Source: an uncultured Candidatus Saccharibacteria bacterium
GTDB taxonomy: Bacteria; Patescibacteriota; Saccharimonadia; Saccharimonadales; Saccharimonadaceae
Direction: 5' to 3'
DNA length: 64,000 nucleotides
Assembly: GCA_947428935.1 (NCBI GenBank)
Contig: CANENS010000003.1
Span: forward strand, 1 to 64,000
Positions within the stretch are counted from its first letter, which is position 1. Each line of letters starts with the position of its first letter. The position numbers were made by a program, and so were the translations under genes. Under the pieces are notes generated by a model. That model worked only from the letters and a program-made list of their open reading frames with translations, did not search any database and was not told the DNA's origin. Of the stretch, positions 62 to 62,899 are shown in pieces.

Positions 62-127
62 TCTAAAGATTTTATATTTATAAAACTAGATAAAAACGGT
101 TTGCTTAGTCTCAGAATTATGGAATAA
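2..127 (+). CDS. C-terminal end of an unknown protein with an (Ala-Glu)n tail (partial)
   Basis: The frame entering the window reads (AE)n, then SKDFIFIKLDKNGLL, SLRIME and a TAA stop at 125-127. The last 14 codons lie inside a 128-bp sequence repeated at 7737-7864. The apparent C-terminus may therefore have been acquired by repeat insertion. The body of the gene is outside the window and no function can be given. The frame could also be fortuitous. Confidence 0.4.
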   Translation, partial: AEAEAEAEAEAEAEAEAEAESKDFIFIKLDKNGLLSLRIME

Positions 128-211
128 GCTCTAGAATTATAAAGCTAAAATTAGTGTCTTTTAGAATTATAAACTCTCAAACAGAATTAGTAGCGCAAAA
201 AATAGCATTTA
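84..211. repeat. 128-bp direct repeat, copy 1
   Basis: This stretch is repeated in the same orientation at 7737-7864 with one mismatch. It contains spaced copies of the short word AGAATTATAA, which also recurs a few times up to about 320. The two copies bracket 7.5 kb holding the recombinase, prepilin peptidase, pilin pair, three tRNAs and the structured RNA. It encodes nothing recognisable beyond the tail of the partial frame ending at 127. Confidence 0.9.
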
Positions 212-364
212 CAGAATCACAGAAAGTGTTTGGGAATTATAACTTGAAAATAATTCTTCTTAGAAGCACGATTCCTTACGGAAGATTAGAAAAAACTTAT
301 TCTAAATTTTGGAATTATCAACTGAAATCCAGCCGCCCAACAGCTTCTGATAAACTTCTTATGT

Positions 365-4850: not shown

Positions 4851-4964
4851 TATGGTCTTCATTGCATTACCGGCATTGCAAAGGTCACAGCGGGATACGC
4901 AGAGGCGGGATGATATGGCGAGGCTGGCTACGGCGATAAATAACTATCAGACGAATAATAATGG
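4851..4964 (+). repeat. 114-bp perfect inverted repeat, left arm (pilin)
   Basis: Identical, in inverted orientation, to 5756-5869. Identity stops abruptly at both ends: A against T on the outer side and T against G on the inner side. The repeat encodes pilin residues from MVFIALPALQRSQ through INNYQTNNNG. The segment between the arms is 791 bp. Confidence 0.97.
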
Positions 4965-5343
4965 TAGATTGCCGGGCAATGGGGCAGCTACTGTGACACC
5001 ATGTGAACCTGGTGGACCTACTTTTGGTGATATCCCTACTGGAGATACTCAGGTGGCTTGTAATTTTATTAGACAATACATGAACTCCGCCACGGCTCAA
5101 GCTAGCGATGATAGTGAATTCTTAGATCCTAGCGGAGACCCATATAAACTCCATATTAGTAATTACGATAATGCCTCTAATGCCGCTAAAAGCGGAAATA
5201 TGACCTTTGCTGATAAGATTGTATATGTAGTTACAGGTGGACGTTGTAATGGTGAGAATATTGAAAAGTCTAACAATTCACGTGATTATGCTATTAGATA
5301 CAAAATGGAAGGATCTGGTACCTATTGTAAAGATAGCCAGTAG
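4852..5343 (+). pseudogene. Headless pilin copy (silent C-terminal cassette)
   Basis: This encodes 163 residues matching the pilin at 5413-5979 from MVFIALPALQ onward. It ends with the same type of C-terminus (RDYAIRYKMEGSGTYC). The leader, the cleavage site and the first part of the hydrophobic helix are missing, and an in-frame TAA lies 4 nt upstream of the ATG at 4852. It cannot be processed as a pilin here. After the 114-bp identical block the DNA diverges strongly while protein similarity remains, so this is an alternative C-terminus. Inversion or gene conversion could place it behind the intact pilin head. Confidence 0.85.
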
Positions 5344-5412: not shown

Positions 5413-5979
5413 TTAGCGACTGTCTTTGCAATATGTGCCGCTACCTTCCATTTTATAAACTATAGCGTAGTCACGCCGGTTAGACGTTTTCTCCGCATTT
5501 TCGCCTTTACATTCTGCTTGAGTATAAACACGAACCACGTGATCAAAAGGAACAGGTTCAACGACTTCACCCACACCGGAACCCAAATCTATAATTTCAA
5601 CACCATACGCCCAACCATCCGGATCTAAGAACTCGTTATTGTTGCCAGCATTTACCGAATTAAGATAAGTCGTTACGAGTTTTATAGCATCGTTATTACC
5701 AGTAGGCATGTTTCCTGCATCATTTGCAGGCGATGTTCCGGCACCTGGTACTTTCCCATTATTATTCGTCTGATAGTTATTTATCGCCGTAGCCAGCCTC
5801 GCCATATCATCCCGCCTCTGCGTATCCCGCTGTGACCTTTGCAATGCCGGTAATGCAATGAAGACCATAAGGAAGATCAAACCCGCAATCGCGAGCACCA
5901 GGACAACCTCAATAATGGTAAAGCCGCCCGGATCCCCCGTTTTCATATTCATATTCTTTTTTGCTGCAGTTTTTGCCAC
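5413..5979 (-). CDS. Type IV pilin (major pilin candidate)
   Basis: A 188-residue prepilin with a class III leader: a basic lead, then GG|FTIIEVVLVLAIAGL, with Glu at position 5 of the mature protein and a hydrophobic N-terminal helix. A globular domain follows, with Cys near 156 and at the C-terminus (GTYCKDS). Start is GTG at 5979, preceded by AAAGGAT. The helix-encoding region carries the right arm of the 114-bp inverted repeat shared with the headless copy. Processing would be by the PilD homologue at 1446 and assembly by the operon at 8-16 kb. Confidence 0.9.
   Translation of the reverse strand: MAKTAAKKNMNMKTGDPGGFTIIEVVLVLAIAGLIFLMVFIALPALQRSQRDTQRRDDMARLATAINNYQTNNNGKVPGAGTSPANDAGNMPTGNNDAIKLVTTYLNSVNAGNNNEFLDPDGWAYGVEIIDLGSGVGEVVEPVPFDHVVRVYTQAECKGENAEKTSNRRDYAIVYKMEGSGTYCKDSR
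5756..5869 (-). repeat. 114-bp perfect inverted repeat, right arm (pilin)
   Basis: Exact inverted copy of 4851-4964, inside the intact pilin gene just after the codons for the membrane-spanning half of the N-terminal helix. Recombination between the arms would invert 4965-5755. Confidence 0.97.
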
Positions 5980-6204: not shown

Positions 6205-6398
6205 CTGTCTAGCTAGGCAGCGGAGGGGGAAACCGAAGTAGCGGTAATTGTCGTACGACAAATAGACATATCCTGGGCTAAGAGTTAGACTGTACGCATG
6301 GGTAGTATCGGAATTAATTGCTACTGACCACACAGAGCCATTAGCTCCAGTATAACCCAAAGGTCTTTCAACGTTAATAAAGATTCCTCCGCTGCGAA
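6205..6398 (-). repeat. Variable cassette C1 (RSG...GFPLRC domain end)
   Basis: Opens with TTCGCAGCGG and ends CCTAGCTAGACAG. The encoded end reads RSGGIFINVERPLGY ... YRYFGFPLRCLARQ. It is one of the more diverged copies: the middle differs in sequence, but ends and length are kept. No gene body is joined upstream; the sequence before it is AT-rich and gene-free. Confidence 0.9.
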
Positions 6399-6924: not shown

Positions 6925-7325
6925 TTAGGATTGCTCCGCCCTACTATGATCGAAGAGGTCCATGCGCTGACTATCAGTCAGCAACTGAACAGTTAGGCAA
7001 CATTTTCGCCTTGTGTGGCAACCGGATCATAGACTCATAGCGCGAACGGAATACGCGATCCCGGGTCTTGCACGAAGCATCGAGGTCAAGCTCCAGCTCC
7101 GGACAATCCCCTACTGAAGATTGTGAATCCCTCTCTATCCCGAATCAATCGGGGCGAGACGATAGTTCAACCGAAGACCAAGGTCTAAGTTGGGAAAAAG
7201 TGGATTCGTTACCCAAAGCTATTGCAGGTGTGTCTTGCCCAGTTCACTTCAAACGCGCCCCTATTGGGCAATTAATTGTCATAAGCGCCTCGGATGGGTG
7301 ACCACGTCCAAAAGCGCTTATCCCC
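6925..7325 (+). ncRNA. Structured non-coding RNA, possibly RNase P RNA
   Basis: About 400 GC-richer bases with no good coding frame but many helices. There is a long-range CTATGATC/GGATCATAG stem around two hairpins (GCTGACT/AGTCAGC and AACTG/CAGTT), plus CCCGA/TCGGG, TTGCCC/GGGCAA and TAAGCGC/GCGCTTA. The end (CCACGTCC, AAAAGCGCTTATC) resembles the conserved 3' part of bacterial RNase P RNA, and GAAGAGGTCC could be the P4 strand. However, the near-universal GGAAA-type P4 sequence is missing, and the last stem pairs locally rather than with the 5' end. RNase P RNA is a candidate, not an identification. A cassette begins 8 nt downstream. Confidence 0.45.
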
Positions 7326-7332
7326 CATTTCG

Positions 7333-7522
7333 TTCGCAGCGGGAACATTAATATCAATAACGGTCGTTTGAGGAACTCTGGCATCAACGGTTACGGATGG
7401 TCTACGCGAGCTAATTCTTCTGATCTTCGTTATGCATACAACCTCAACTTCAATGCGTCTGGCGTCAACCCGTCCAACAACAACAATCGCTGGAACGGCT
7501 TTCCCCTCCGCTGCCTAGCTAG
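7333..7522 (+). repeat. Variable cassette C2, asparagine-rich (template-like)
   Basis: The encoded end reads RSGNININNGRLRNSG ... YNLNFNASGVNPSNNNNRWN. Nearly every position that varies among the other copies is AAC or AAT here. Its 3' end departs from the family right after CCTAGCTAG: it lacks ACAGTAATAAT and has TTTCCCC where nearly all others have TTCCCCC. A DGR template repeat is expected to be adenine-rich at the variable codons and to differ from targets at the 3' end. It lies between the structured RNA and a strong terminator, so it may be transcribed as RNA. No reverse transcriptase is nearby. Confidence 0.9.
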
Positions 7523-7556
7523 TTCCAGTCCCAATCTTCACACATTTTACATAATT

Positions 7557-7598
7557 TTTTGGGTGTCGAAAATTCGACACCCAAAAAATTTTCACTTC
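7557..7598 (+). terminator. Strong terminator after cassette C2
   Basis: AATTTTTTGGGTGTCG and CGACACCCAAAAAATT form a long near-perfect stem around AAAATT, with A and T flanks. It would end transcripts from the structured RNA through C2 and could act in both directions. Confidence 0.85.
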
Positions 7599-8019
7599 CC
7601 TATCTCATCCAAACACACTAAGAAATCTTACACCGTTCTATCTTTCCGTATTAAAATTTCCTAACCCTCTAATCAAGGTGCTCGTTCATATATACTCCAA
7701 ATCAAAGCTCATTTTACATAACCCGAACAAAACCCGAACTAGATAAAAACGGTTTGCTTAGTCTCAGAATTATGGAATAAGCTCTAGAATTATAAAGCTA
7801 AAATTAGTGTCTTTTAGAATTATAAACTCTCAAACAGAATTAGTAGCGCAAAAAGTAGCATTTATGGAATTATAATCAAAGCGGCAAAATCATAAAGTCA
7901 AAATCACATTTTATAGAAATAAATTCAAAGAAAAGAATCCTTTTTTTCGAAACTAAACTCCTAGACAAAATACGAACCCTGATTACTCAAAGTCCGTATT
8001 TCCCTGATTCTCCGCTATT
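7599..8019. other. Gene-free stretch containing the second 128-bp repeat
   Basis: AT-rich, with no coding frame. It holds the 7737-7864 repeat preceded by tandem CCCGAAC words, and lies downstream of pilC, which ends at 8020. Confidence 0.6.
7737..7864. repeat. 128-bp direct repeat, copy 2
   Basis: Matches 84-211 with a single mismatch in the same orientation, 7653 bp away. Both borders are sharp. Confidence 0.9.
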
Positions 8020-17674: not shown

Positions 17675-17871
17675 CCGTCTAGCTAGGCAGCGGAGGGGGA
17701 AGGCGTACCAGCGATTGCCGTAGTAGCTGGACGGGTAGACGCCAGACGCATCGAAGCGGAGGTTGTACGCATAACGAAGATCAGAAGAATTAGCCCGCGA
17801 CGACCATCCGTAACCGTTGATGCTAGAGTAACTCAAACGACCGTCATTGATAACGACGTACCCGCTGCGAA
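17675..17871 (-). repeat. Variable cassette C4
   Basis: Intact ends (TTCGCAGCGGG, CCTAGCTAG). It encodes RSGYVVINDGRLSYSS ... YNLRFDASGVYPSSYY, then GNRWYAFPLRC. Relative to C2, AAC codons have become TAC, GAC, CGC, AGC and GGC while third bases stay C. It forms a tandem pair with C5, 31 bp apart. Confidence 0.93.
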
Positions 17872-32085: not shown

Positions 32086-32323
32086 TTTTTCCTTTCCGGG
32101 AAAACCTCAGATACCAGTTTTTTATCACCACCAAATACCAATGACTTCTAAAAAACTTCTATCTGCCGTCTTCCCTATTTTACAAACTACTCCCCCAAGC
32201 CATTATAACATACTTTATAGCAATAATCGCCACCTATATCGCATCATCATCAAAATAAACGTTCGGACGCTTCGCGTCCGAGAAGAAATAGCTTTCTTCT
32301 CGTCCTACAGCCACTTCCACAGG

Positions 32324-32510
32324 TCGCAGCGGGAACGTCTCTATCAGTAACGGTCGTTTGAGGGGCTCTGGCATCTTCGGTTACGGGTGATCGTCGAGGG
32401 CTAATTTCTCTAATGTCGCTCGAGCATACTTCCTCTACTTCCATGCGTCTGGCGTCGGCCCGTCCAGCAACAACGGTCGCTGGAACGGCTTCCCCCTCCG
32501 CTGCTCGAGC
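32324..32510 (+). repeat. Variable cassette C6 (with in-frame TGA)
   Basis: Starts TCGCAGCGGG and ends with tail TGCTCGAGC, which merges directly into a purB fragment on the other strand. It encodes [16 protein letters not shown] ... [16 protein letters not shown]. The conserved Trp codon is TGA, as in C17. Its leader (CTACAGCCACTTCCACAG) resembles that of C8. Confidence 0.92.
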
Positions 32511-32747
32511 AACATCATAATTAATATCATCAATATGCGCCTCCAGCTCTTTAATCTGCTCATCCGTAATCAGTTCTCCGCCTACTTTCAGACCCAACTG
32601 CTGTTCCGCCTTCGCCAGCGCCACCCAGAGCCTTCGCCATGTACTAAATTTCCGGTCGTCCGAAAAAATCCTCTGCATTTCCAGACTGGCATAGCGACCC
32701 GCTAAGGGTGATTGATAAACATCAGTTCTCACGTTCACATTACTCAT
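32511..32747 (-). pseudogene. purB: Adenylosuccinate lyase N-terminal fragment cut by a cassette
   Basis: The minus strand encodes about 80 residues that read as the start of PurB ([56 protein letters not shown]). Homology stops at GCTCGAGCA, exactly where cassette C6 ends, and the frame continues through antisense cassette sequence. None of the catalytic regions of PurB is present and I find the rest nowhere in this window. A TM7-type genome may not need purB. Confidence 0.85.
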
Positions 32748-42510: not shown

Positions 42511-42706
42511 TTCGCAGCGGACTTGTTAATATCGATCTCGGTCGCTTGAGATACTCTGGCATCTTCGGTTACGGGTGGTCGTCGAGGGCTAATTTCTCTA
42601 ATGTCGCTCGAGCATACTTCCTCTACTTCCATGCGTCTGACGTCCTCCCGTCCAACGGTATCAATCGCTGGTACGGCTTCCCCCTCCGCTGCTCAAGCAT
42701 AGACAG
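42511..42706 (+). repeat. Variable cassette C7
   Basis: Encodes RSGLVNIDLGRLRYSG ... [16 protein letters not shown], then NRWYGFPLRC. Ends TGCTCAAGCATAGACAG (second tail type). The coding part is identical to C10 at 47136 until its last 10-15 bases. Downstream lies the family hairpin TCATAAA/TTTATGA and GAGTTTTAGGTTGTG, but only the beginning of the inverted-repeat element. Confidence 0.93.
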
Positions 42707-46679: not shown

Positions 46680-46872
46680 TCGCAGCGGGGCCACTAATAT
46701 CGAAACTGGACGCTTGGTCTGGCCTGGTGAACGTGGCTATGATTGGTCATCCCATGCTAAAACGTCCAGTATTACCCATGCATACCTCTTTAGCCTCACC
46801 GTTTCTAGCGTCGGTCCATCTAATGATAGCGTACGCTGGTACGCCTTCCCCCTCCGCTGCCTAGCTAGACAG
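46680..46872 (+). repeat. Variable cassette C8
   Basis: Encodes RSGATNIETGRLVWPG ... RWYAFPLRCLARQ. The middle is among the more diverged. The leader TTACAGTCACTTCCACAG resembles that of C6. Followed 31 bp later by C9 in the same orientation. Confidence 0.92.
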
Positions 46873-47091
46873 TAATAATATATGGTAAAACTAAATCGCC
46901 GAGTTCGCAGCGGGTACATTAACATTAATAATGGTCGATTGAGATATTCTGGCAATAGCGGCGGCAAATGGTCATCACAAACTTCCGATACGGCTCATGC
47001 ATATCGGTTAAATTTCAATGCATCCACTATCTACTCTGCCGCTGGTGATTCCCGTGATCATGCTGTCCCCCTCCGCTGCCTAGCTAGACAG
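46843..47091 (+). repeat. About 200-250-bp duplication, copy 1 (with 62487-62735)
   Basis: From the 3' end of C8 through cassette C9 the sequence matches 62487-62735 on the other strand almost base for base. This includes the spacer encoding MVKLNRRV. The cassettes further upstream (C8 here, C20 there) are unrelated in their variable parts. Confidence 0.9.
46904..47091 (+). repeat. Variable cassette C9
   Basis: Encodes RSGYININNGRLRYSG ... RLNFNASTIYSAAGDS, then AVPLRCLARQ. It uniquely has AVPLRC in place of GFPLRC. A short frame with its own ATG (MVKLNRRVRSG, 46882) runs through it, but there is no ribosome site and no domain upstream. Confidence 0.93.
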
Positions 47092-47135
47092 TAATAATGT
47101 ATGGTAGAAAATTGTTTGTTTATAATTCTAATTTC

Positions 47136-47308
47136 TTCGCAGCGGACTTGTTAATATCGATCTCGGTCGCTTGAGATACTCTGGCATCTTCGGTTACGGG
47201 TGGTCGTCGAGGGCTAATTTCTCTAATGTCGCTCGAGCATACTTCCTCTACTTCCATGCGTCTGACGTCCTCCCGTCCAACGGTATCAATCGCTGGTACG
47301 GCTTCCCA
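47136..47308 (+). repeat. Variable cassette C10, alternative 3' end
   Basis: Identical to C7 from TTCGCAGCGGAC through GGCTTCCC, then switches to ACCTACAATCT instead of CCTCCGCTGC. C17 switches in the same way and to the same words. It lies just downstream of rpsO (opposite strand). Confidence 0.92.
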
Positions 47309-47734: not shown

Positions 47735-47928
47735 TTCGCAGCGGGCTAATTAATATCGAAGTCGGTTATTTAAAACTTTCTGGCCTCGTCGGTTATGGAT
47801 GGTCATCACGGGCTCATTCTTCTGATGTTCGTTATGCATTCTACCTCGACTTCGATGCGTCTGGCGTCTACCCGTCCCTCAACGGCAATCGCTACTACGG
47901 CTTCCCCCTCCGCTGCCTAGCTAGATAG
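47735..47928 (+). repeat. Variable cassette C11
   Basis: Encodes RSGLINIEVGYLKLSG ... FYLDFDASGVYPSLNG, then NRYYGFPLRCLAR. Intact ends. Upstream it abuts the rpsO promoter region. Confidence 0.93.
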
Positions 47929-49904: not shown

Positions 49905-50101
49905 TTCGCAGCGGGCGCCTCAATATCGATAACGGTCGTTTGTGGAGCTCTGGCGTCAACGGTTACGGGCGGTCGTCCCGGGCTAATTCTTCTAGTATTA
50001 ATAATGCATACTTCCTTTTCTTCAATGCGTCTAGCGTCGACCCGTCCAGCAACGGCAACGCTCGCTGGGTCGGCTTCCCCCTCCGCTGCCTAGCTAGACA
50101 G
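49905..50101 (+). repeat. Variable cassette C12
   Basis: Encodes RSGRLNIDNGRLWSSG ... FLFFNASSVDPSSNGN, then ARWVGFPLRCLARQ. It has one extra codon in the Asn run. Followed by the GCATAAA/TTTATGC hairpin and a complete inverted-repeat element at 50167. Confidence 0.94.
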
Positions 50102-51330: not shown

Positions 51331-51526
51331 TTCGCAGCGGGTTCGTTGATATCAATAACAGCCACTTGGGGTATTCTGGCATCTATGGTTACGGATGGTC
51401 GTCATTGGTCGATTCATCCGATGCCGCTCGAGCATACTATCTCACCTTCCATGCGTCTGACATCTACCCGTCCCTCAGTAATAATCGCTGGAACGCCTTC
51501 CCCCTCCGCTGCTCGAGCATAGATAG
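51331..51526 (+). repeat. Variable cassette C13
   Basis: Encodes RSGFVDINNSHLGYSG ... YYLTFHASDIYPSLSN, then NRWNAFPLRC. Ends TGCTCGAGCATAGATAG (second tail type). It has the full palindrome leader upstream. Confidence 0.94.
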
Positions 51527-51814: not shown

Positions 51815-52011
51815 TTCGCAGCGGGTTTATCCATATCAATTCCGGTCACATAAATCTTTCCGGCATTTACGGTTACGACTGGTCGTCCCGAGCCAATTCT
51901 TCTGACGCTCATTATGTACACTTCCTCAGCTTTAATAAGACAGAGATCTACCCATCTAACGGCCAAAATTCTCGCTGGAATGGCTTCCCCCTCCGCTGCC
52001 TAGCTAGACAG
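51815..52011 (+). repeat. Variable cassette C14
   Basis: Encodes RSGFIHINSGHINLSG ... FLSFNKTEIYPSNGQN, then [14 protein letters not shown]. Intact ends with the first tail type. Confidence 0.93.
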
Positions 52012-56027: not shown

Positions 56028-56221
56028 TTCGCAGCGGGTTTGTCGATATCAGCGTCGGCCGGTTGTGGGATTCTGGCGTCATCGGCTATGGATGGTCTAC
56101 GCGAGCTAATTCTTCTAATGTCAATGGTGCATACTATTTCCGCTTCGATGTGTCTGGGGTTACTCTGTCCAACGTCCGCAGTCGCTGGGCTGGCTTCTCC
56201 CTCCGCTGCCTAGCTAGACAG
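56028..56221 (+). repeat. Variable cassette C16
   Basis: Encodes RSGFVDISVGRLWDSG ... YYFRFDVSGVTLSNVR, then SRWAGFSLRCLARQ. Pro of FPLRC is Ser here (CCC to TCC). Followed 34 bp later by C17. Confidence 0.93.
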
Positions 56222-56255
56222 TAATAATAAAACAGAAGCTTAATTAGAAATATTT

Positions 56256-56427
56256 TTCGCAGCGGACTTGTTAATATCGATCTCGGTCGTTTGAGATACT
56301 CTGGCATCTTCGGTTACGGGTGATCGTCGAGGGCTAATTTCTCTAATGTCGCTCGAGCATACTTCCTCTACTTCCATGCGTCTGGCGTCGGCCCGTCCAG
56401 CAACAACGGTCGCTGGAACGGCTTTCC
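56256..56427 (+). repeat. Variable cassette C17, mosaic
   Basis: The first 60-70 bases match C7/C10 (CGGACTTGTTAATATCG; GATCTCGG; AGATACTCTGG). The remainder matches C6, including the in-frame TGA and the end GGCCCGTCCAGCAACAAC. The 3' end switches to CCACCTACAATCT as in C10. It looks like a recombinant of two cassettes. Confidence 0.92.
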
Positions 56428-56507
56428 ACCTACAATCTCGTCAGGGTTAGCCTACTACTGGATAGATGATAATAACTAAGAATAGCAACAAAGGCTAGAA
56501 GACTCAA

Positions 56508-58552: not shown

Positions 58553-58744
58553 CGCAGCGGGCTCGTCAGTATCAACAGTGGCGCAATACGATATTCCAAT
58601 GTTGGTGGATACGCCTGGACTTCGCGAACTATCTCATACGGTACTCAACTTGCATATAGGCTCAGCTTCGATGCCTCAGTTACTGACCCAGCCAATGGTA
58701 GCAATCGCTGGAACGGCTTCCCCCTCCGCTGCCTAGCTAGACAG
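58551..58744 (+). repeat. Variable cassette C18
   Basis: Encodes RSGLVSINSGAIRYSN ... YRLSFDASVTDPANGS, then [14 protein letters not shown]. With palindrome 7 before it and hairpin plus inverted-repeat element after it (to 58924) it is the most complete unit in the window. Confidence 0.94.
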
Positions 58745-62486: not shown

Positions 62487-62674
62487 CAGTCTAACTAGGC
62501 AGCGGAGGGGGACAGCATGATCACGGGAATCACCAGCGGCAGAGTAGATAGTGGATGCATTGAAATTTAACCGATATGCATGAGCCGTATCGGAAGTTTG
62601 TGATGACCATTTGCCGCCGCTATTGCCAGAATATCTCAATCGACCATTATTAATGTTAATGTACCCGCTGCGAA
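62487..62674 (-). repeat. Variable cassette C19, near-identical to C9
   Basis: Encodes the same protein end as C9, including AVPLRC, and the same MVKLNRRV spacer upstream. The tail differs by two bases (CTAGTTAGACTG). Confidence 0.93.
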
Positions 62675-62735
62675 CTCGGCGATTTAGTTTTACCATATAT
62701 TATTACTGTCTAGCTAAGCAGCGGAGGGGGAAGGC
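62487..62735 (-). repeat. About 200-250-bp duplication, copy 2 (with 46843-47091)
   Basis: Inverted copy of 46843-47091, covering cassette C19, the spacer and the 3' end of C20. The identity fades inside C20. Confidence 0.88.
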
Positions 62736-62899
62736 GTTAAAACAATCGCTATAATATGACGGATAAGTACCGGATGCGCCGAAGTATAGGTTATACGCAT
62801 AACTAACATTATCAGTATCTGTTCGATTTGACCAGCTGTAGTTTGCTATACCAGTTTCATTTAGATGCCCAGTCTTAGTAATAATACGCCCGCTGCGAA
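62706..62899 (-). repeat. Variable cassette C20
   Basis: Encodes RSGRIITKTGHLNETG ... YNLYFGASGTYPSYYS, then DCFNAFPLRCLARQ. One of the more diverged copies, AT-richer in its middle. Its leader runs to palindrome copy 8 at 62970. Confidence 0.92.

Follow-up and report, generated by a model that had tools for sequence, protein, structure and literature searches.

The cassette that we call C2 raises the question of whether an asparagine-rich repeat in a Saccharibacteria genome is the template repeat (TR) of a diversity-generating retroelement (DGR), as an earlier note on this DNA had proposed, and of what the many similar cassettes of the same genome are for. DGRs are normally seen as systems that overwrite their target, such that earlier variants are lost. 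Antigenic variation by means of silent cassettes recalls stored variants, and the source of the donor diversity is usually unclear. The window, by which we mean the whole stretch of 64,000 nucleotides that was analysed, belongs to an assembly that we designate G000. Positions that carry a contig name refer to this assembly (G000:C2 is its contig C2); cassette C2 itself sits on contig C3, and positions without a contig name are those of the window. The cassette family to which C2 belongs has a unit of ~190 bp, and a motif scan found 16 of its 3′ ends in the 64-kb window, where 0.7 are expected.

Cassette C2 consists of ATTTCGTT, followed by CGCAGCGG...CCGCTGC and CTAGCTAG, and it has this region in common with the variable repeats (VRs). 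The features in and around it are the following:

7327..7522, plus strand: probable template repeat C2 (~190 bases), with Asn codons, variable sites that map to its adenines, and ATTTCGTT, which is also present in the expressed VR
7497..7522, plus strand: IMH*-like 3′ end of the TR, GGCTTTCCCCTCCGCTGCCTAGCTAG in C2 as compared to GGCTTCCCCCTCCGCTGCCTAGCTAGACAGTAATAAT in the VRs
7553..7590, plus strand: very stable 17-bp hairpin 30 nt past the TR, without a clean U-tract
6930..7326, plus strand: stretch that may belong to the 5′ portion of the template RNA, specific to this genome and of ordinary structure

A 134-nt direct repeat (98% identical; window positions 84-217 and 7737-7870) brackets the 7.6-kb segment that holds C2.

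The earlier note had been struck by the Asn codons of C2 and by its deviation from the other cassettes at the very 3′ end, and both observations proved correct. C2 contains 16 AAC or AAT codons, while the mean of 141 cassettes from its own genome is ~4.8 (z = 6.5) and the next highest number is 10. At position 168, it has a T where 57 of 59 close cassettes have a C, and after CTAGCTAG it continues with TTCC, where the cassettes have ACAGTAATAAT. The T/C difference at position 168 and the divergence past CTAGCTAG are of the kind that distinguishes the IMH of a VR from the IMH* of a TR in DGRs. Also the expectation that the bases that vary in other cassettes map to an A in C2 was confirmed: of the 40 columns with the highest variability, 28 correspond to an A in C2 (hypergeometric P = 3e-12). 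Among the 40 closest cassettes, a share of 0.62 of the differences from C2 is found at its adenines, whereas 25% is expected, and none of 20,000 column permutations reached this share. The pattern extends to the level of single codons. At the AAC and AAT codons, the 60 closest cassettes display all four bases at the A's, and the following C or T is nearly fixed; A133 of C2, for example, corresponds to T in 21, G in 14, A in 12 and C in 12 of them, and the next C of the same codon varies by 5%.

With C2 as the template, variation is 0.44 at A's versus ~0.09 elsewhere, and among 132 cassettes, C2 has the highest A/non-A ratio of variation. We furthermore used a template test, in which a cassette is accounted for by a template if no fewer than 10 of its differences, making up two thirds or more of the total, are located at A. 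When applied to 141 cassettes, C2 accounts for 11, and each of the other 140 accounts for 0. From the adenine mapping and from its position as the only cassette to pass this test, we conclude that C2 very probably is the TR of the DGR of this genome. The differences are strongly enriched at the adenines of C2, with drift at non-A sites, and they are near-exclusive to TR adenines in relatives. No perfect derivative of C2 is present among the cassettes, the minimum being 5 non-A differences, often at positions 15 and 168. Hence, C2 may have undergone drift, or the genome may have, or have had, a sister TR.

The surroundings of C2 agree less well with the earlier description. A structured RNA had been placed ahead of it, but the leader (6930-7333) has no more structure than shuffled sequences (z = -0.66), no Rfam match and no DNA relative among 60 genomes of the genus, and we have discarded it as a known or unusually structured RNA on these grounds. 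The promoter-like box that had been reported in front of C2 likewise has no counterpart in our search for promoter-like sites. As to the strong terminator said to follow C2, there is indeed a very stable hairpin of 17 bp at 7553-7590, but it has no clean U-tract, and terminator scoring did not call it. It is possible that this hairpin forms the 3′ end of the template RNA and is not a canonical U-tract terminator.

The genome encodes an intact DGR-type reverse transcriptase (RT) of 392 aa at G000:C2:96888-98066 (minus strand), which was found with a profile of 15 RTs of the genus (E = 1e-177). The best PDB match of the RT family is 8ub7 (E = 1.5e-40), which we take to be the RT of the Bordetella phage DGR. 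The RT carries the motifs IGNLTSQ and YVDD, which place it in the DGR clade; the sequence (I/V/L)GxxxSQ is a hallmark of DGR RTs (PMC3521204). A genome scan with Pfam PF00078 had indicated a genome without an RT, which was a false negative, since the genus-specific profile detects the RT; PF00078 exceeds its cut-off on the isolated RT protein. Upstream of the RT is a 344-aa ORF without a Pfam or NCBIfam match; 12 DGR loci of the genus have a homologous gene in the corresponding position.

Two cassettes adjoin the RT, and both are diversified and not Asn-rich. The earlier note had considered a more A-rich copy next to an RT as a competitor of C2, and no copy richer in Asn codons is located beside the RT of this assembly. 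In most relatives, the TR adjoins the RT, whereas C2 is far from its RT, being on contig C3 while the RT is on contig C2; such linkage is usual in DGRs, but not required. C2 would therefore act in trans, which is in line with the earlier suggestion of a trans-acting RNA template. For Thiohalocapsa, it has been argued that DGR parts can act in trans (PMC10907252), and for cyanobacteria a case has been made for remote targets (PMC7517822).

In relatives of the same genus, 13 loci harbor a homologous repeat pair near the RT, of which one repeat is Asn-rich (TR) and the other is not (VR). The TR and VR differ only or mostly at TR adenines (29/29, 22/22, 20/20 and 20/20 in the clearest cases), and the TRs encode Asn at positions that match those in C2. 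One of the relatives, G013, provides a positive control: its RT-adjacent TR passes the template test for 31 dispersed silent cassettes, all others for 0, and variation is 0.41 at the A's of this TR as compared to 0.07 elsewhere. The template in G013 is known independently, and the silent cassettes of that genome bear the DGR signature; C2 shows the same behavior as this template. Another relative, G024, has four Asn-rich TR-like copies (L140, L147, L145 and L148) with the common 3′ sequence GTCGCGGTTCGGTGCCGATCTTT, none of them beside any RT that was found, and this genome possibly carries several trans templates.

A profile made from 14 cassettes of the window gave at least 150 matches in the 1.10-Mb assembly. 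Only one of the 150 matches listed lies in a long ORF, where the cassette forms the C-terminus of a 560-aa protein (G000:C2:77913-79594), such that the VR is located at the 3′ end of a protein-coding target, as in DGRs. The N-terminus of the protein contains a hydrophobic helix, and a FISUMP domain is recognized as well (NCBIfam TIGR02145, above cut-off). Structure models of its VR domain, in which a C-type lectin fold was sought, were of low to middling confidence (low for the VR) and showed no PDB match. The remaining cassettes are short open stretches on both strands that lie in no long ORF and have no start codon. A single expression site, or two, next to many silent copies is also what is seen in the relatives, with 1 of 127 cassettes in a long ORF in G024 and 2 of 93 in G013.

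Of the sites that are A in C2, 26 of 42 are different in the expressed VR, and of the non-A sites 56 of 129; this VR is therefore an old variant and no fresh product of the DGR. One silent cassette (G000:C4:11270) matches it without a single difference for 199 bp (100% identity), from a point 5 nt ahead of CGCAGCGG as far as ACAGTAATAATA, though the flanks differ, as would be expected of a silent donor. G024 also has one silent cassette that closely matches the VR of its single long ORF (99.5% identity for 221 bp), and the identity is bounded at the cassette ends; in G013, no silent twin of the expressed VR was found among 81 cassettes. An old expressed VR with an exact silent twin favours recall from the archive, a direction of copying that we infer here. 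The expression VR is followed at a distance of 33 nt by a 12-bp GC hairpin that is common to only two other cassettes. It resembles the target hairpin of BPP-1 (PMC3240598), and most relatives are without a perfect one. At G000:C11:27881-28069 (L053), there is a 5′-truncated copy of the expression site, which shares ~146 nt of upstream sequence and the downstream hairpin with it and contains another cassette; the latter is 99.5% identical to the silent cassette at contig position C2:30771.

In the window, the silent cassettes are distributed as follows:

6208..6396, minus strand: silent VR-type cassette C1
16770..16949, plus strand: silent cassette with an in-frame stop and a type-B 3′ end
17678..17869, minus strand: silent cassette with 17 A and 6 non-A differences from C2
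17906..18091, minus strand: silent cassette in tandem with the one at 17678..17869
32325..32504, plus strand: silent cassette inside a purB-like fragment
42513..42692, plus strand: silent cassette with an identical copy at 47138-47308
46681..47308, plus strand: three tandem silent cassettes (46681-46869, 46906-47088 and 47138-47308)
47737..47925, plus strand: silent cassette
49907..50098, plus strand: silent cassette
51333..51512, plus strand: silent cassette with a type-B 3′ end
51817..52008, plus strand: silent cassette
56030..56428, plus strand: two silent cassettes (56030-56218 and 56258-56428)
58553..58741, plus strand: silent cassette, 98.4% identical to G000:C6:31273
62490..62897, minus strand: two silent cassettes in tandem

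At 32250-32747 (minus strand), a fragment that resembles the start of adenylosuccinate lyase (purB) runs into the silent cassette, as if this had landed in a gene copy. Furthermore, the window contains two convergent pilin-like ORFs (4852-5343, plus strand, and 5413-5979, minus strand) that have the stretch FIALPALQRSQRDTQRRDDMARLATAINNYQTNNNG identical and then diverge. The first of them is without an N-terminal signal, and the two are possibly a silent/expressed pilin pair.

Nearly all cassettes of the genome are open, and a few are truncated or have stops. Their 5′ end is sharp, with the border between TT and CGCAGCGGG in 98% of them, and at the 3′ end CCCTCCGCTGC is followed by CTAGCTAGACAGTAATAAT (102 cassettes) or TCGAGCATAGACAGTAATAAT (27 cassettes). 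Beyond these ends, the flanks are mostly unrelated. Two types of 3′ end occur in G000, CTAGCTAG... and TCGAGCATAG..., the second of which is 2 nt longer and thus would shift the stop frame. The cassettes of G013 have borders unlike those of G000, and several of them (L112-L131) are arranged in convergent pairs with their 3′ ends close to each other. The inverted repeat GCAGCGG...CCGCTGC at the cassette ends was considered as a recombinase site, but G013 lacks it (CGTGGCGGG...ACGGTCC) and G024 has retained only a part of it, and we therefore attribute it to conservation of the coding sequence.

The same core can be found between different flanks, the same flanks can enclose different cores, and some cassettes are mosaics. 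Pure in-place retrohoming into the silent cassettes does not explain this, since the cores at sites with identical flanks differ at A as well as at non-A positions. The silent cassettes also hold a VR-specific flank that is absent from the TR (ACAGTAATAAT on the 3′ side in G000, TATATATCTAACT on the 5′ side in G013), and thus they would be descended from VRs and not directly from TR cDNA.

With moderate confidence, we propose that Saccharibacteria of this genus have a two-layer system: a DGR produces new variants by reverse transcription from a remote template, ~100-150 of these are kept in the genome as silent VR cassettes, and gene conversion brings them back to the one expression site. C2 would be transcribed, and its transcript would be reverse transcribed with A-to-N errors by the RT on the other contig, with help from the putative 344-aa accessory protein. 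The cDNA would then rewrite the C-terminal VR of the surface-type FISUMP-domain protein, with the GC-rich CCCTCCGCTGC end serving as the IMH. The VRs made in this way would be copied, flank included, to the ~150 start-codon-less sites in the genome, and these silent cassettes would constitute an archive that is exchanged with the expression site and among its own members through copying that resembles gene conversion and has the short conserved ends as its limits. The sequence itself speaks for the identity of the TR (by adenine mapping), the RT with its putative accessory gene, the one full target and the silent cassettes, and for two species it points to copying events that involve the archive and the expression site. 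We infer from it that the DGR is currently active and that switching takes place, and the enzymology of cassette dispersal would be as outlined here. The biological role presumably lies in changing a binding surface.

A possible objection, though in our view an improbable one, is that C2 is a retired or sister TR, and that the active TR is unassembled or lost. The assembly is a draft in 27 contigs with a completeness of 96%, and therefore another TR could be missing; G024 has its four TR-like copies, and C2 shows consistent non-A differences from most cassettes at positions 15, 69, 91 and 168. However, position 168 falls in the IMH, where a difference between TR and VR is expected, and some cassettes carry the TCTACG of C2 (67-72) and its other non-A bases bar about five. 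Also, no other cassette among the ~150 is Asn-rich, and it is C2 alone that passes the template test. The two-layer system would furthermore be called into question if mutagenised TR cDNA inserted directly at many sites by ectopic retrohoming, such that the cassettes were by-products and no archive. Integration in BPP-1 needs just short 5′ homology (at least 8 bp) and the IMH (PMC3240598), the cassettes bear the A-to-N signature, and many of them are unique. Still, we consider this unlikely, because the TR does not contain the VR-specific flank of the cassettes in G000 and G013, a flank that is also common to near-identical cassette pairs, and because the hairpin downstream of the expression VR recurs in only two other cassettes.

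The few truncated or interrupted cassettes, and the large distance of many from C2 at non-A sites, might suggest that we are looking at decaying debris of old VR duplications that never returns to the expression site. This appears quite improbable to us given that nearly all cassettes are open, that flanks and cores have been reshuffled, and that the expression VR has its silent counterpart in two species (100% in G000 and 99.5% in G024). Least probable by far is that no DGR is involved, and that the genome displays plain silent-cassette gene conversion of the pilS/vls type, with C2 as a consensus look-alike whose Asn codons are selected. One expression site and many silent copies, one of them exactly identical to it, would be accommodated by such a scenario. 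It is nonetheless largely refuted already by the four bases at C2 adenines next to a nearly fixed C or T in the same codons, by the intact DGR RT and putative accessory gene, and by the canonical DGRs with homologous TRs in relatives.

If the two-layer system is true, a genome of ~1 Mb links the writing of a DGR with the recall of stored variants and gives ~3% of its length to the latter (~150 cassettes of ~220 bp). Whether a heritable library can be fed by reverse transcription would thereby become testable, and there would be a candidate route by which epibiotic Saccharibacteria change a surface protein.

With respect to known systems, there is a clear likeness to the cis DGRs of Patescibacteria (DGR clade 2, Roux et al. 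2021, PMC8144416) and of the genus, namely in the SQ-motif RT, the putative accessory gene upstream of it, the Asn-rich TR, the VR at the 3′ end and the A-only differences between TR and VR. Unlike in these, TR and RT here are on separate contigs, and ~150 gene-less silent VR cassettes are dispersed. Separate loci for TR, RT and targets, as well as dispersed variable sequences, are known from the remote or trans DGRs of cyanobacteria (PMC7517822) and Thiohalocapsa (PMC10907252). In the accessible parts of these two reports, the remote targets are genes with CLec domains, whereas we find cassettes without a start codon, and an expression site that is identical to an archived copy is not described there. 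One TR with many VR copies also corresponds to the highly repetitive TRs of the MetaCSST survey (PMC6642488), though the accessible part of that paper mainly covers multiple target genes or repeats within a target and has no silent archive tied to an expression site. What appears to be new is that, in three genomes, a DGR occurs together with one or two complete target genes and a set of 90-150 silent VR cassettes, and the sequences suggest an archive that is written by a DGR and exchanged with the expression site. In the open-access part of the literature that we searched, there was no report of a DGR that is tied to a silent archive.

The arrangement of one expression site and many silent partial copies resembles that of Neisseria pilE/pilS (PMC3547852), Borrelia vls (PMC9159922) and Anaplasma msp2 (PMC2789410). 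As in these systems, copying into the expressed gene would be tract-wise. To our knowledge, the donor diversity in pilE/pilS, vls and msp2 is not made by a mutagenic reverse transcriptase, whereas the donors described here carry the signature of a DGR.
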